DNA of 64,000 bases from NCBI GenBank assembly GCA_002050125.1, contig MWTA01000058.1, positions 1 to 64,000 on the forward strand, written 5' to 3'. The translations under genes were made by a program, and so were the position numbers. A model generated the notes under the pieces. It had not been told where the DNA came from and did not search any database. It saw only the letters and a list, made by a program, of their open reading frames with translations. This DNA is from Anaerolineae bacterium UTCFX2. GTDB taxonomy: Bacteria; Chloroflexota; Anaerolineae; Anaerolineales; UBA4823. Positions 2,677-10,099 of the stretch are shown here, piece by piece (position 1 is the stretch's first letter; each line of letters opens with the position of its first letter).

Positions 2677-3204
2677 ATGGAAACGATACTATCATGGTCA
2701 GCCTGGCTATCCGCCGGCTTGATTTTCTTTTTACGCGTCAGCGATATGACGCTGGACACCTTGCGCGTGCTGGTGATGATGCGCGGCAAGAAAAGCGTCG
2801 CCTGGCTGCTGGGACTTTTTCAGTCGCTCATCTTCGTGCTGGCGATCACCTCCGTGTTGAACAATCTGGATAATCCGTTGAACATTCTGGGTTATGCGAG
2901 CGGTTTTGCGACCGGGGTGGTGGTTGGGATGCTCATTGAGGAGCGGCTGGCGTTGGGGCATGTTCAGATCAGCATCGTGAGCTCCAGGCGCGGCGCGGCG
3001 ATTACCGAGCGGCTGCGCGAAGAAGGCTTTGCGATCACCGAGATCCCGGCGCGCGGCAAAGACGGCATGGTATCGCTGCTGAACTGCAGCGTGCTGCGTA
3101 AAAACGTCAGACGGGTGCAGGAGATCGTAAACGAGGTGGACGAGTCGGCGTTTATCACGGCTGAGGACGTGCGCCCGGTGCGGCGGGGCTTCTGGCGCGC
3201 CTGA
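2677..3204 (+). CDS. UPF0316 (DUF5698-DUF2179) membrane protein
   Basis: A 175-residue protein with about three transmembrane helices in the first 95 residues (around 8-26, 42-62 and 68-88). A soluble C-terminal DUF2179-type domain of about 75 residues follows, containing the characteristic hydrophobic-then-charged pattern LREEGFAITEIPARGKDGM. This is the UPF0316/YebE-like arrangement; DUF2179 domains are thought to bind small ligands, but no function is established here. An AAGGAAAAG ribosome-binding site precedes the ATG. It follows glgP by 62 bases. A small 5-bp hairpin (3205-3217) lies right after the stop. Confidence 0.85.
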   Translation: METILSWSAWLSAGLIFFLRVSDMTLDTLRVLVMMRGKKSVAWLLGLFQSLIFVLAITSVLNNLDNPLNILGYASGFATGVVVGMLIEERLALGHVQISIVSSRRGAAITERLREEGFAITEIPARGKDGMVSLLNCSVLRKNVRRVQEIVNEVDESAFITAEDVRPVRRGFWRA

Positions 3205-3298
3205 CAGCCGAAGGCTGCCGCAGGCTCGCCAGGGCGCCGTCAGCGGCGGGTCTTGAAATCCGGCGCCGATCCAAGGGGGCAATTCAAATCGAAATATT

Positions 3299-3314
3299 TG
3301 TGATATTAATCACA
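3299..3314. promoter_or_regulatory. CRP/FNR-family operator-like palindrome
   Basis: TGTGATATTAATCACA is a complete TGTGA-N6-TCACA site with both half-sites perfect. It lies upstream of the Rrf2-cydA-cydB-cydDC unit and is centred about 65 bases before the start predicted from the -35/-10 pair at 3337-3365, near a class I activator position. It matches the CRP class better than the FNR class (TTGAT-N4-ATCAA). No CRP/FNR regulator gene is in the window, so the binder is inferred. Confidence 0.6.
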
Positions 3315-3336
3315 TGTCCTAAATGACAAAGGCACG

Positions 3337-3365
3337 TTGACAGGCTTCCCGAAAATCTTTACCAT
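3337..3365 (+). promoter_or_regulatory. Candidate sigma-A promoter for the Rrf2-cyd unit
   Basis: TTGACA (3337-3342) and TACCAT (3360-3365) are separated by 17 bases. The -35 is perfect and the -10 matches 4 of 6. The -10 lies inside the left arm of the inverted repeat at 3357-3394, so a protein bound there would block it. Confidence 0.5.
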
Positions 3366-3394
3366 CTAAGTAATTGTTGACGAGACTGGTAAAG
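3357..3394. repeat. Inverted repeat CTTTACCA-N22-TGGTAAAG over the promoter
   Basis: Perfect 8-bp arms at 3357-3364 and 3387-3394 with a 22-base spacer, just upstream of the Rrf2 start at 3409. The arms overlap the putative -10 and the predicted leader. It could be an operator for the Rrf2 regulator (autoregulation) or an RNA stem in the leader. The long spacer is unusual for an Rrf2 site. Confidence 0.5.
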
Positions 3395-3408
3395 GTTATG
3401 GGTGGCTT

Positions 3409-3888
3409 ATGTTTAAGATCAATCGTCGAACAGATTATGCGGTGCGGGTGATGTTATGCCTGGCTCGGCGTCCCCCCGGCGCGCGCCTGGCGACGCAGCG
3501 CATTCAGCAAGAAATGCGCATCCCACGCGCGTTTCTGCAGCGCATTGTTGCAGACCTCGCGCGGCTGGGGTTGGTGAACACCTTCGCGGGACCCAACGGG
3601 GGGTTAGAGCTGGCGCAGCCGGCAGCCGCGATTAATTTGCGGCACATCTGGGAGGCGGTTGAGGGACCGCTGTTGATCTCGGATTGTCTGGAGGGGGAGG
3701 CGGCGTGTCCGCTGGAACCGGGCTGCCCGGTCAATCAGCGCTGGCGGCGGCTTCAAGCGCTGATCGGGCATGAGTTGGAATCGATCACGCTCGCAGAATT
3801 GGTGGAAGAGGCGCAGCGGCTGCCACAGGCGCCGGCTTTGGTGTCATTAACCCGGCTGGCGCAAGTCTCAGTTGGCGGCGCTCATTAA
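3409..3888 (+). CDS. Rrf2-family [Fe-S] transcriptional regulator
   Basis: A 159-residue Rrf2/BadM-type winged-helix repressor. The N-terminal HTH begins at TDYAVRVMLCLAR and includes the recognition region IPRAFLQRIVADLARLGLV, followed by the wing with GPNGGLELA. Three cysteines at about 93, 100 and 106 (C-x6-C-x5-C) sit where IscR/NsrR bind an iron-sulfur cluster, so redox, oxygen or nitric oxide sensing is likely by homology. It lies 141 bases upstream of cydA on the same strand and is the obvious candidate regulator of the bd oxidase genes. The promoter region carries an inverted repeat consistent with autoregulation. Which member (IscR-, NsrR- or RsrR-like) cannot be decided from the sequence. 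Confidence 0.88.
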   Translation: MFKINRRTDYAVRVMLCLARRPPGARLATQRIQQEMRIPRAFLQRIVADLARLGLVNTFAGPNGGLELAQPAAAINLRHIWEAVEGPLLISDCLEGEAACPLEPGCPVNQRWRRLQALIGHELESITLAELVEEAQRLPQAPALVSLTRLAQVSVGGAH

Positions 3889-5438: not shown

Positions 5439-6470
5439 ATGTCGCTCAATACCTTGTGGTTCATTTTTATCGCTGTGCTGTATATTGGTTTCTTTGTGCT
5501 GGAGGGTTTTGATTTTGGCGTGGGAATTTTGCTGCCGTTCCTAAGCCGCGATAAAGACCCGCAGCAGGTGGATGTCAAACGCCGCCTGATGATCAACACC
5601 ATCGGTCCGCACTGGGATGGGAACGAGGTCTGGCTGTTGACTGCCGGCGGCGCGACCTTTGCGGCTTTTCCCCACTGGTACGCAACCTTTTTTAGCGGGT
5701 TCTACTTGGCGCTTTTCATTTTGCTGCTGGCGCTGATCGCGCGCGGGGTGGCGTTTGAGTTCCGCGGCAAAGACGATGCGCCGCGCTGGCGCAGCCTGTG
5801 GGACTGGTCGATTTTTCTGGGGAGCCTGGTGCCGGCGCTCCTGCTGGGGGTGGCTTTTGGAAACCTGGCGCGCGGCGTCCCGATCGACGCGAACATGCAG
5901 TACGCCGGCGGTTTCTTCAACCTGCTCAATCCGTATGCGCTGCTGGCTGGGGTCACTGCGGTGGTTGCGTTTGCGCTTTACGGCGCGATTTTCATCGCTT
6001 TGAAAACCGATGGCGAGATCCGCCAAAAGGCGCACGCCCTGGCGGGGAAGCTGTGGATTGCAAGCGTGATCGTCATGGCTGCGCTGCTGGTATCCACGTA
6101 CTTCCAGACCGACATCCTGGACAAGCTGGGGGTTAACCCCGGCGTGGTGCCGATCGTTGGGATGGCAGCCATGCTCGCGGCGGGCTACTTCATCCATAAG
6201 CGCATGGAAGGGTGGTCTTTTGCCATGGTAGCGGTTGGGATCGCGTTTACGGTCGCGACCATGTTCTTGATCCTTTATCCGCGGGTGATGATCTCCAGCC
6301 TCGACCCGGCGTACAGCCTCACCATCACCAACGCTTCTTCTTCGCCTTATACGCTCCGGGTGATGACCATCGTGACGCTGATCTTCCTGCCGGTGGTGTT
6401 GATTTATCAAGCCTGGAGTTACTGGGTGTTCCGCAAGCGGCTGACGGTTGAGTCGCGCCTGGTGTATTGA
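5439..6470 (+). CDS. cydB: Cytochrome bd quinol oxidase subunit II
   Basis: A 343-residue polytopic membrane subunit of the bd oxidase. It begins with the family hallmark LNTLWFIFIAVLYIGFFVLEGFDFGVGIL and contains the IGPHWDGNEVWLLTAGGATFAAFPHWYA motif (residues about 52-79). A strong AGGAGG site precedes the ATG. The stop codon overlaps the start of the CydDC gene by one base (TGATG at 6468-6472), which indicates translational coupling of the oxidase to its assembly exporter. Confidence 0.97.
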   Translation: MSLNTLWFIFIAVLYIGFFVLEGFDFGVGILLPFLSRDKDPQQVDVKRRLMINTIGPHWDGNEVWLLTAGGATFAAFPHWYATFFSGFYLALFILLLALIARGVAFEFRGKDDAPRWRSLWDWSIFLGSLVPALLLGVAFGNLARGVPIDANMQYAGGFFNLLNPYALLAGVTAVVAFALYGAIFIALKTDGEIRQKAHALAGKLWIASVIVMAALLVSTYFQTDILDKLGVNPGVVPIVGMAAMLAAGYFIHKRMEGWSFAMVAVGIAFTVATMFLILYPRVMISSLDPAYSLTITNASSSPYTLRVMTIVTLIFLPVVLIYQAWSYWVFRKRLTVESRLVY

Positions 6471-9400
6471 TGCATCTCGACCCGCGCTTGCTGAGGCTCG
6501 CCTGGCAGAACCGCTCTGCCTTGCTCTTGTCCGTGCTTCTGGGCGCCTCAGCCGGCGTACTGGCAATCTTACAGGCTGGAATTCTCAGCCGGGTGGTGGG
6601 TCAGGTTTTTCTGGACAAGCAGCCCCTGGCGCAGATTTCCAGCCTGTTTTTTTTTCTGCTGGCGGTTCTGATCCTCCGCCCGGCGCTCGGCTTTGGCAGC
6701 GACCTGGCGGCTCAGCGAGTTGCGCGCACCGTCAAATCGTGGTTGAGACGCCGGTTGTCTGCCGCGCTGCTCGAGCGGGGTCCGGGGTATACGGCGCAAG
6801 AGCAAACCGGCGAGCTGACGCATACGCTGGTAGAGGGCGTCGAATCGCTCGAGGCGTATTATAGCCAGTATCTGCCGGGCGCAGCGCTGGCAGTCAGCGT
6901 GCCAACTGCGATTCTGGTCTATGTGTCCTGGCTGGATCTGGTCTCAGGGCTGGTGTTCTTGTTCACCGCCCCCATAATCCCCCTTTTCATGGTGTTGATC
7001 GGCAGCCTGGCGCAGGCGCTCACCCGCCGCCAGTGGCGCACGCTGAGCCGGCTGAGCGCTTATTTTTTGGATGTGCTGCAGGGGCTGCCCACGCTCAAGC
7101 TGTTTGGGCGCAGCCGCGATCAGGTCAAAAACATCGCGCTGGCGAGCGAACAGTTCCGTCAGACGACCATGAGCGTGCTGCGAATAACCTTTCTCTCCGC
7201 GCTCACGCTCGAAATGGCGGCAACCCTCAGCACGGCGGTCGTGGCGGTGCAGATTGGGCTGCGGCTGCTTTACGGGCAGATCCCGTTCGAGCAGGCTTTC
7301 ACGGTCTTGCTGCTCGCGCCCGAGTTTTATGCCCCGCTGCGGATGCTCGGCGCGCGCTTTCACGCCGGAATGGCTGGCGTGGAGGCTGCCCAGCGGATTT
7401 TCGCCGTGCTGGACAGCCGGACGCTGAATAAACCCGAACACACCGGAGAAAAACTCGCGGCGGTTCAGGGGAGTTCTGAGAGCCTGCACTTCAACCAGGC
7501 AATCCGGTTCGCAGATGTGCACGTGAGCTTCGAGGAGAGCCGCCAGGCGCTGCGGGGAGTCTCGTTTGAAATTCAGCGCGGCCAGCGGGTGGCGTTGGTC
7601 GGTCCGAGCGGCAGCGGCAAGAGCACCATTATGGGCTTGCTGCTGCGCTTTATCGCGCCGGATGGCGGTGCGATCACGCTGGATGGTAAGCCGCTGGAAG
7701 ACGTTCCGCTCCACGCCTGGCGCGGGGGGATCGCCTGGGTGCCGCAAAGACCGTATTTGTTCGCCGATACTGTGGAAGCCAACATCCGCCTGGGTAAGCC
7801 GGAGGCGGATATGGACGCGGTGTTTGAAGCTGCCCGGCTGGCTGAAGCGCATGATTTTATTTGCGCTCTGCCTGAGGGGTATGCGACCCGAATTGGCGAG
7901 CGCGGCGCGCGGCTGAGCGGCGGCGAGGCGCAGCGCATAGCGCTGGCGCGCGCATTTTTGAGGGATGCGCCGCTGGTCTTGCTGGATGAGGCGACCGCCA
8001 ATCTGGATGTAGAGAACGAAGCCAGGTTGAACCTGGGGATCGGACGGTTGCTGGAAGGGCGCACGGCGCTGGTAATCGCCCACCGTTTGAAAACGATCCG
8101 GGAAGCCGATCAGGTGCTGGTGCTGGAGCAGGGGGAAATTCGCCAGTCGGGGGCGCCTTCAGAACTTGCCGGTCAGGCAGGTTTGTTCCGGCGCATGCTG
8201 CTGGCGTCGCAAACTCCAATCTCGGACGGCGCGCGGGTGGGCGGGCGGGGGCTGGTTGGCGCAGATCGGGGCACGCTGGCGCTGTCACGCAGCCCAACCT
8301 CGCTGCAAGCTTCAAGCCCTCCGCAGACCGAACCCGCGCCGCGCAGCCCCAGGTTAGTTCGCCTGATGCGGTTGGCGTCCGGGATGTGGGGTTGGGGCGC
8401 GCTGGCGGCGTTGGCGGGCGCCGCGACGGTGCTGTGCGGGGTGGGGCTCATGGCGACCTCCGCGCTGATCATCAGCCTGGCAGCCTTACACCCCTCGATT
8501 GCGCTGCTGCAAGTTCCGATTGTTGGGGTGCGTTTCTTTGGGATCGGGCGCGGCGTCTTTCGCTATTTGGAACGCTACCTTTCGCACGAGGCGACCTTCC
8601 GGCTGCTGGCTGAATTGCGGACGTGGTTCTATCAGGCGCTGGAACCGCTGGCGCCGGCGCGGTTGATGCGTTATCGCAGCGGCGACTTGCTGGCGCGCAT
8701 TTTAAGCGACATCCAGTCGCTGGAGAATTTTTACGTGCGCGCCCTGGCGCCGCCTCTGACCGCGGTGTTGGCGCTGGCGGCGGTGCTGGTTTTCGTGAGC
8801 AGTTTTTCGCTCCAGTTGGGGCTGGTCTTGCTGCTGTTCTGGCTGGCGGCTGGGATCGGGCTGCCATTGTTGGCGGGGCAGCTGGGCAAGCAGGCTGGTT
8901 TTCAACTCGTCGAGCGGCGTTCCGATTTGAACAGCGCGGCAGTAGATTTTATCCAGGGGCTGGCGGATCTGCTGGCATTCACGCAGGGCGAACAGGCGTC
9001 TCAGGATTTGGAGAGGCGCAGCCAGGCGCTTTTGAATGCGTTGCAGCGCCTGGCGGCGATCGCCAGTCTGCAAAATGCCGGGATGAGTTTGTTGGCTAAT
9101 CTGGGGATGTGGAGCGTGCTGGTGTTTGCCATCCCGCTGGTCAACGGAGGCGGGTTGCAGGGGGTTTATCTGGCGGTGCTGGCGCTGGCTGCGCTGACCA
9201 GCTTTGAGGCGCTCAACCCTCTGCCGGTTGCCGCCCAATACCTGGAAAGCAACCTGCAAGCCGCCCGCCGCTTGTTCGAGATCGTCGATGCCGAGCCGGA
9301 GGTCCGCGATATCGCCTGGCCGCACTCGCTTCCGCTGAGCTTCGATCTGCAGGTGCGCAATTTATGCTTCAGCTATCCGGACGGGACGGCTGCGCTGGAA

Positions 9401-10099
9401 GATATCACATTCGACCTGCCTGCCAGGAAGCGCATGGCGATCGTCGGCGCCAGCGGGGCGGGCAAATCTACGCTGGTTAACTTGTTGCTGCGCTTTTGGG
9501 ATTATCAGGATGGCGAAATCCTGCTGGCGGGGCGGCGCTTGAAGGATTATGCTCAAGAAGGGCTGCGCGCCCGCGTTGCGGTCGTGCCGCAGACCAGCTA
9601 TCTGTTCAACGCCACGTTGCGGGACAACCTGCGGATTGCCAACCCGCGCGCCAGCGACGAGGACATTTTTCGAGCAGCCAGCCTGGCGGGGATTCATGAG
9701 TTCATCCTGGGGCTGCCCCAGGGTTACGATACCTGGGCGGGCGAGCACGGGTTGAAGTTGAGCGGCGGAGAGCGTCAGCGGATCGCGCTGGCGCGGGCGC
9801 TGCTCAGACAGGCTGCATTGTTGATCCTGGATGAGGGGATGGCGAACCTGGACGCGCTCGCCGAGTTGCAGGCGCTCCAGGCGGTTTTCCGCGCGACCGA
9901 GGAGCAATCGTTGTTGATGATCACGCACCGGCTGGTGGGCATGGAGCTGATGGATGAGATCCTGGTGATGCAAAAGAGTCGGGTGGTCGAGCGCGGCGCT
10001 CACCAGGAGCTGCTGGAGAAGGGCGGGTTGTATTACCGGATGAACGAGCTGACTGAAGCGCTGGTTCCAGCTAAAACTTCAGCCAAACGGTCGGGGTAG
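6470..10099 (+). CDS. cydDC: Fused CydD-CydC ABC exporter for bd oxidase assembly
   Basis: A single 1209-residue chain holds two complete ABC exporter halves, each a six-helix membrane domain plus an ATPase. In most bacteria CydD and CydC are separate. The complex moves haem/thiols and is needed for cytochrome bd assembly. First half: Walker A GPSGSGKST near residue 378, signature LSGGEAQRIALARA, Walker B LVLLDEATANLD. Second half: Walker A GASGAGKST near 993, signature LSGGERQRIALARA, Walker B LLILDEGMANLD, a less canonical D-loop region. A proline/serine-rich linker of about 60 residues joins them around residues 580-640. I place the start at the ATG at 6470, coupled to the cydB stop; an in-frame TTG one codon upstream is the alternative. 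The last 67 bases overlap the convergent GDPD gene. Confidence 0.95.
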   Translation: MHLDPRLLRLAWQNRSALLLSVLLGASAGVLAILQAGILSRVVGQVFLDKQPLAQISSLFFFLLAVLILRPALGFGSDLAAQRVARTVKSWLRRRLSAALLERGPGYTAQEQTGELTHTLVEGVESLEAYYSQYLPGAALAVSVPTAILVYVSWLDLVSGLVFLFTAPIIPLFMVLIGSLAQALTRRQWRTLSRLSAYFLDVLQGLPTLKLFGRSRDQVKNIALASEQFRQTTMSVLRITFLSALTLEMAATLSTAVVAVQIGLRLLYGQIPFEQAFTVLLLAPEFYAPLRMLGARFHAGMAGVEAAQRIFAVLDSRTLNKPEHTGEKLAAVQGSSESLHFNQAIRFADVHVSFEESRQALRGVSFEIQRGQRVALVGPSGSGKSTIMGLLLRFIAPDGGAITLDGKPLEDVPLHAWRGGIAWVPQRPYLFADTVEANIRLGKPEADMDAVFEAARLAEAHDFICALPEGYATRIGERGARLSGGEAQRIALARAFLRDAPLVLLDEATANLDVENEARLNLGIGRLLEGRTALVIAHRLKTIREADQVLVLEQGEIRQSGAPSELAGQAGLFRRMLLASQTPISDGARVGGRGLVGADRGTLALSRSPTSLQASSPPQTEPAPRSPRLVRLMRLASGMWGWGALAALAGAATVLCGVGLMATSALIISLAALHPSIALLQVPIVGVRFFGIGRGVFRYLERYLSHEATFRLLAELRTWFYQALEPLAPARLMRYRSGDLLARILSDIQSLENFYVRALAPPLTAVLALAAVLVFVSSFSLQLGLVLLLFWLAAGIGLPLLAGQLGKQAGFQLVERRSDLNSAAVDFIQGLADLLAFTQGEQASQDLERRSQALLNALQRLAAIASLQNAGMSLLANLGMWSVLVFAIPLVNGGGLQGVYLAVLALAALTSFEALNPLPVAAQYLESNLQAARRLFEIVDAEPEVRDIAWPHSLPLSFDLQVRNLCFSYPDGTAALEDITFDLPARKRMAIVGASGAGKSTLVNLLLRFWDYQDGEILLAGRRLKDYAQEGLRARVAVVPQTSYLFNATLRDNLRIANPRASDEDIFRAASLAGIHEFILGLPQGYDTWAGEHGLKLSGGERQRIALARALLRQAALLILDEGMANLDALAELQALQAVFRATEEQSLLMITHRLVGMELMDEILVMQKSRVVERGAHQELLEKGGLYYRMNELTEALVPAKTSAKRSG

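Follow-up and report, generated by a model that had tools for sequence, protein, structure and literature searches.

Tandem Rrf2-type operators over the promoter and a CRP/FNR-type site upstream suggest double control of rrf2-cydABDC in Anaerolineales

In this work we have found that the promoter region of an rrf2-cydABDC unit carries two copies of a conserved 17-bp dyad with a seven-base interior (N7), set in a 19-bp register, with a CRP/FNR-class palindrome upstream of them. From sequence comparison we consider it probable that the unit is doubly controlled and autoregulated, with its own NsrR-like Rrf2 protein repressing through the tandem operators and a CRP/FNR-family protein activating. 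The features concerned are listed below; the window is the whole stretch of DNA that was analysed, 64,000 nucleotides in length.

3299-3314: CRP/FNR-class palindrome TGTGATATTAATCACA, an exact TGTGA-N6-TCACA, centred at about -65.5
3323-3328, + strand: ATGACA, seen by eye, perhaps what remains of the left half of another CRP/FNR-type site, near -42
3337-3342, + strand: predicted -35, TTGACA, of the single sigma-70-like promoter predicted in 3205-3420
3360-3365, + strand: predicted -10, TACCAT, 17 bp from the -35
3357-3394: inverted repeat of the initial annotation, with arms at 3357-3364 (CTTTACCA) and 3387-3394 (TGGTAAAG)
3358-3374: putative Rrf2-type operator unit 1, TTTACCATCTAAGTAAT, overlapping the -10
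3377-3393: putative Rrf2-type operator unit 2, TTGACGAGACTGGTAAA, 19 bp after unit 1
3409-3888, + strand: rrf2, an Rrf2 regulator of the Fe-S type, 159 aa, with D9, C93, C100 and C106
4030-5424, + strand: cydA, cytochrome bd subunit I
5439-6470, + strand: cydB, cytochrome bd subunit II
6467-10099, + strand: cydDC, CydD and CydC domains in a single fused frame (1210 aa)

Domain profiles found CydA, CydB, CydD and CydC in this order, which makes the genes after rrf2 a cytochrome bd operon with CydDC. Upstream of rrf2, at 2677-3204, is a DUF5698/DUF2179 gene whose C-terminal end, judged by eye, also stands upstream in several relatives. A match to the window Rrf2 protein is present in 36 of the 38 genomes of the family, and 12 loci stand apart from the other family matches, with at least 151.8 bits against at most 105.7 bits; cydA lies downstream in 11 of these 12, and the remaining one ends at a contig edge. 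The order-wide search covered 400 genomes, with matches of at least 137 bits taken as the orthologue set (L173-L175 are borderline), and 120 loci were examined, 77 of them followed by cydA on the same strand and 43 not. Two pairs of loci, L055/L080 and L059/L072, share identical upstream DNA, so that 118 are distinct; L059 and L072 are both among the 77. Six of the 43 loci without downstream cydA have fewer than 600 bases of downstream DNA, and in many others SCO1/SenC-like proteins follow (labelled by eye; two in L126 were checked, PF02630). As the genomes are related, neither the locus counts nor the genome counts given here are independent, and we do not take a Fisher test on the genome counts as independent evidence. 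A scan of the phylum at E values up to 1e-38 matched 18 of 400 genomes, every one of them in the same order, and the rrf2-cyd tandem system was found here solely in this one order, Anaerolineales.

What is the element that is conserved over the promoter? The initial annotation had described an inverted repeat of 8-bp arms with a 22-base spacer over the -10. Its arms are present but they do not make up one operator: with the two units lying at 3358-3374 and 3377-3393, the repeat joins the left half of unit 1 to the right half of unit 2, that is, the outer halves of two N7 dyads. Both window units are 17-bp dyads of the TTKAC-N7-GTMAA type, and they lie over the -10 and the predicted start. TTTAC-N7-GTAAA with at most one mismatch occurs in 58 of the 77 rrf2-cydA loci, where the shuffled mean is 0.65, and dyads with other spacers from 0 to 15 occur in only 0-10 of the 77. 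Two dyads exactly 19 bp apart were found in 41 of these loci, any other offset in three at most. By a combined criterion, 72 of the 120 loci have the 19-bp tandem (51 of them rrf2-cydA), 15 have a single good dyad and 33 have neither; the tandem was absent from 20 rounds of shuffling of the 120 loci. The consensus over the 72 tandem loci reads naAAtccTTACAATannaGTAAACGTTtACtnnnnnnGTaAangTTtn. The information content is 1.0-2.0 bits in most of the half-site columns and below 0.4 bits inside the N7 stretches, except for AAT in unit 1, the last three bases of TACAAT. In 60 of the 72 loci this exact hexamer occupies the -10 place.

The protein encoded next scored over the curated cut-offs for the Rrf2 domain, with 112.7 bits for PF02082 (cut-off 30) and 100.2 bits for TIGR00738 (cut-off 73.3). 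It had been described as a three-cysteine Rrf2 protein, and C93, C100 and C106 are indeed present and, together with D9, invariant in 12 orthologues. In S. coelicolor NsrR, Asp8 is a cluster ligand, according to the accessible part of PMC9338935. Among solved structures, that of this NsrR (5n07) matches the window protein best (E 1.3e-10), and its Asp8 and three C-terminal Cys residues align with D9, C93, C100 and C106. The C-terminal Cys residues of NsrR are cluster ligands too. For a profile of the 12 orthologues, the BadM/Rrf2 protein (4cic) was the best match and NsrR the fifth. Since the window protein did not reach the equivalog cut-off of NsrR (60.5 against 182 bits) or of IscR (66.2 against 207.55 bits, TIGR02010), we file it as Rrf2, NsrR-like. 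It appears to have the ligand set of a [4Fe-4S] NsrR, and the cluster itself is predicted. Named records that match the regulator are MAGs of Anaerolineales or of other Chloroflexota.

Could such a protein answer to the supply of iron or Fe-S clusters, as IscR does, and not to O2 or NO? Rrf2 proteins respond to several signals, cyd needs haem iron, and the available text of PMC7726332 reports that Fur controls an rrf2 gene adjoining cydAB in Geobacter and discusses a link to iron. However, the Asp ligand position aligns with NsrR, and the targets that we see are respiratory, namely cyd, SCO1-like genes and a pyridine nucleotide-disulphide oxidoreductase. We regard an iron signal as rather unlikely.

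A CRP-class palindrome some 65 bases upstream of the start had also been claimed earlier, and it is there: with the promoter predicted at 3337-3365, +1 falls near 3372 and the centre of the palindrome near -65.5. The -35/-10 pair of this promoter matches the consensus at 10 of 12 positions, with 0.4 such pairs expected in shuffles of the scanned region (3205-3420). The palindrome alone is unremarkable, since the 64-kb window holds one TGTGA-N6-TCACA site with at most one mismatch and 0.90 would be expected by chance. The significance of palindrome and dyads alike comes from their conservation before the cyd genes of relatives, which was looked for and found. Exact TGTGA-N6-TCACA sites number seven in the 2.92-Mb genome, against one for a backwards control. 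With at most two mismatches the motif is present in 53 of the 77 rrf2-cydA loci (7.6 in shuffles). Spacers of 4, 8, 10 and 11 between TGTGA and TCACA were also above shuffles, with 35, 21, 19 and 37 of the 77 loci against 8-9 (6.2 for N11). These excesses speak against a clean N6 picture; that of N11 arises because neighbouring sites get paired, and that of N4 is left without explanation.

Measured from the tandem-defined start, sites with at most two mismatches lie at -41 to -44 in 43 of the 72 tandem loci and at -63 to -66 in 17. A site near -42 or -65 is present in 53 of the 72, compared with 0.2 in shuffles, and both are present in seven; the other four-base bins hold a mean of 1.0 sites, the largest 10. 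Class II and class I activators classically bind close to these places. The genus mate of our organism has an exact TGTGA-N6-TCACA at an equal distance from its rrf2 start. At its phased -42 place the window departs from the full consensus at 7 of 10 positions, so that this site is weak, and the window is the sole tandem locus of the 72 with a 6/6 -35 hexamer. With a degenerate -42 site and a perfect -35, it is less evident for the window than for the relatives that an activator is needed. Over the 72 loci, the correlation of -35 strength with the -42 site was not significant (rho 0.19, p 0.11). Two other motifs were tried on the rrf2-cydA loci and rejected, the FNR consensus TTGAT-N4-ATCAA (17 against 13.7) and the CooA-type TGTCG-N6-CGACA (3 against 4.3), neither of which was in excess.

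Which protein might act from the upstream site? The genome of our organism has six CRP-type HTH genes over the cut-off, one of them barely. One CRP-family gene of the six, with R-E-x3-R at the recognition helix, adjoins nrfHA (L004:4279-6172), and upstream of nrfH stands TGTGACTTTTATCACA, 46 bp from the open frame of that gene and about 76 bp from its first ATG. In Desulfovibrio, HcpR has the motif wTGTGAnnnnnnTCACAw and the specificity residues R180/E181, and HcpR regulons of other delta-proteobacteria include nrfHA, as stated in the accessible part of PMC1274295; the likeness to our nrf-linked gene is one of description. Close orthologues (at least 48% identity) of the nrf-linked protein are present in 19 of 25 genomes, and two of the six genomes without one (G267 and G342) keep good cyd sites. 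A search for autoregulation of the nrf-linked gene gave, at best, TGTGA-N6-TCACA with two mismatches in 5 of the 19 orthologues, at scattered places. We propose this protein as a candidate activator of cyd. At another locus, TGTGAATTAATTCACA (L006:6182-6197) stands some 100 bp upstream of the frame for an ADP-forming acyl-CoA synthetase-like protein; judged by its inner bases, it looks closer to a Rex site.

Rex itself was considered for the cyd promoter because its operator looks similar; the palindrome at 3299-3314 would then be a Rex operator from which the NADH-sensing protein acts from upstream. With its flanks the window site reads TTGTG-N8-CACAT, one mismatch from the Rex-type TTGTG-N8-CACAA. 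Rex controls cyd operons in Gram-positives, and a Rex domain scored over the cut-off in 23 of the 25 genomes tried, the genus mate included. The sites before rex genes of the same order nevertheless look different: 13 of 20 read TTGTG-N8-CACAA, with variable bases inside. In the cyd sites, by contrast, TGA/TCA is fixed, neither A nor G ever follows TGA, and the outer T is variable; the cyd site of the genus mate reads ATGTG...CACAT. Moreover, the source assembly (2.92 Mb in 111 contigs, 82.9% complete) is without a Rex over the cut-off, and the place of the palindrome upstream of the -35 suits activation better than repression. Control by Rex seems to us improbable, less clearly so for the window site taken by itself.

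Is it the adjoining Rrf2 regulator that binds the tandem dyads, or could another protein do so? The operator tracks this Rrf2 clade, being found before rrf2-cydA, before rrf2 with SCO1-like genes and before separate cydA genes, and it is missing before 19 Rrf2 paralogues (18 from relatives and one past the window end), none of which has the dyad with at most one mismatch or the tandem. Counted per genome over the 400 genomes, the strict tandem is present in 67 of the 112 with an orthologue and in 12 of the 288 without, and a backwards control pattern matches 13 of 400. Among these 12, the sites in G024 and G354 lie about 300 bases or less from a contig end, that in G388 is at a contig start, and G356 has a similar Rrf2 gene nearby, itself near a contig end. 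The tandem matches in G063, G105, G126, G133, G238, G284 and G348, and L189, look like background. The 45 orthologue-bearing genomes of the 112 in which the strict tandem is missing count against Rrf2 as the binder. On the other hand, the 23-bp operators of S. coelicolor NsrR (5n07/7b0c) likewise have a central 7-bp region, as given in the part of PMC9338935 cited above.

Six genomes in which cydA does not come after the rrf2 orthologue (G237, G061, G392, G394, G138 and G181) also have the tandem, a short way upstream of cydA (sites L178, L179, L180, L182, L184 and L248), and there cydA sits 7-10 kb from rrf2 or on another contig. These separate copies are, to our mind, the strongest argument that the element would belong to this regulator, with cyd as its target, and we find a different binder quite improbable. 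In G181, three operator units follow one another in 19-bp steps before cydA (L248:2476-2530). G321 has a second tandem between rrf2 and cydA (L183). A further tandem, at a contig start (L188:70-105), is 3' of a cytochrome-cd1-type gene (PF02239, 438 bits), and its target would lie off the contig. Single dyads are at background in the genome of our organism, with 13 against 15 for a control pattern; seven of the 13 were inspected, of which six fall within long frames and the seventh, L196, is flanked by two frames.

The paralogue of our organism is located just past the window end (L176:4092-4529, at about 64092-64529 of the contig), and L030-L047 are its counterparts in the relatives. By eye, the upstream regions of the paralogous genes share TGA-N6-TCACT(T/A)G in 19 of 19 cases, and many also hold a GATAA...TTATC-like dyad. 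The paralogue is apparently a second Rrf2 gene with a similar CRP/FNR-type site and a different operator of its own.

As to an RNA hairpin in the leader, the strand does fold a little more stably than shuffled sequence (z -1.93, with 9 of 200 shuffles doing as well), yet the idea is hardly credible and was rejected, because with +1 predicted near 3372 the left arm at 3357-3364 is not transcribed, the N7 dyad is the conserved unit and occurs singly in some loci, and no terminator-like site was found around the promoter in the scan of 3205-3420.

For control by Rrf2 and a CRP/FNR-family protein we propose the following sequence of events, in which the identity of the binder, repression, release on O2 or NO and activation by CRP/FNR are all inferred. 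Rrf2 dimers, side by side, would bind the two dyads at a 19-bp pitch, covering the -10 and the start site, and the bound protein would block RNA polymerase, so that rrf2-cydABDC is off. Damage of the cluster by O2 or NO would make Rrf2 leave, and the bd oxidase would be made. A CRP/FNR-family protein would activate from about -65.5 and, in the relatives, from near -42, near -65 or both. Dual control had been suggested before, and the comparison upholds it as far as a CRP/FNR-class site upstream and a repressor-type element over -10/+1 are concerned, with two dyads in place of the single operator. The relatives appear to strengthen the case for two opposing controls before cyd.

Parts of this arrangement have precedents. 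On the repressor side, the enterobacterial NsrR motif gATGyAT-N5-ATrCATc (given in the accessible part of PMC1274295) is unlike TTTAC-N7-GTAAA and, in distinction to NsrR, the regulator described here has cyd and SCO1-like genes as its predicted targets. Geobacter sulfurreducens has a similar gene order, its rrf2 being numbered directly before cydA and cydB (GSU1639-1641); all three genes are down under cobalt stress and, unlike here, no operator is described in the available text (PMC7726332). On the activator side, in the M. smegmatis cydAB/Crp1 system, two Crp sites of the TGTGA-N6-TCACA type upstream of cydA are needed for induction. One of them, CBS2 (-58 to -73), has its centre at -65.5, the same as the window site, whereas CBS1 is farther upstream (-86 to -101), and no Rrf2 operator is described in the accessible part of that report (PMC7739888). 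Our search of the open-access literature, as far as its texts were accessible, found no paper on Rrf2 and cydA in Chloroflexi and no description of this operator. Within the texts available, GSU1639-1641 of Geobacter and, for the activator, mycobacterial cydAB are the nearest precedents.

What could this system mean for the bacteria that have it? The layout, with paired putative repressor sites on the promoter and an activator-type site upstream, is common to many relatives. In anaerobes, cytochrome bd is often regarded as an oxidase that protects against oxygen. Tentatively, and with slightly less than even confidence, we suggest that an undescribed clade of Fe-S Rrf2 proteins in Anaerolineales may serve the respiratory chain (cydABDC and SCO1-like genes) as a dedicated O2/NO switch. 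Its dimers would assemble cooperatively on 23-bp operators that overlap one another at a 19-bp repeat, in one, two or three units built into the -10, and would work against a CRP/FNR activator phased near -42/-65. In this way these largely anaerobic bacteria might keep the bd oxidase poised, to be released once the cluster is destroyed by O2 or NO. The 19-bp tandem or triple register poses the question of how Rrf2 dimers cooperate. The predicted operator is specific enough to find cydA where the regulator and oxidase genes stand apart, and it offers a concrete, testable site for an uncharacterised Fe-S regulator, tied to cytochrome bd across uncultured Chloroflexota.
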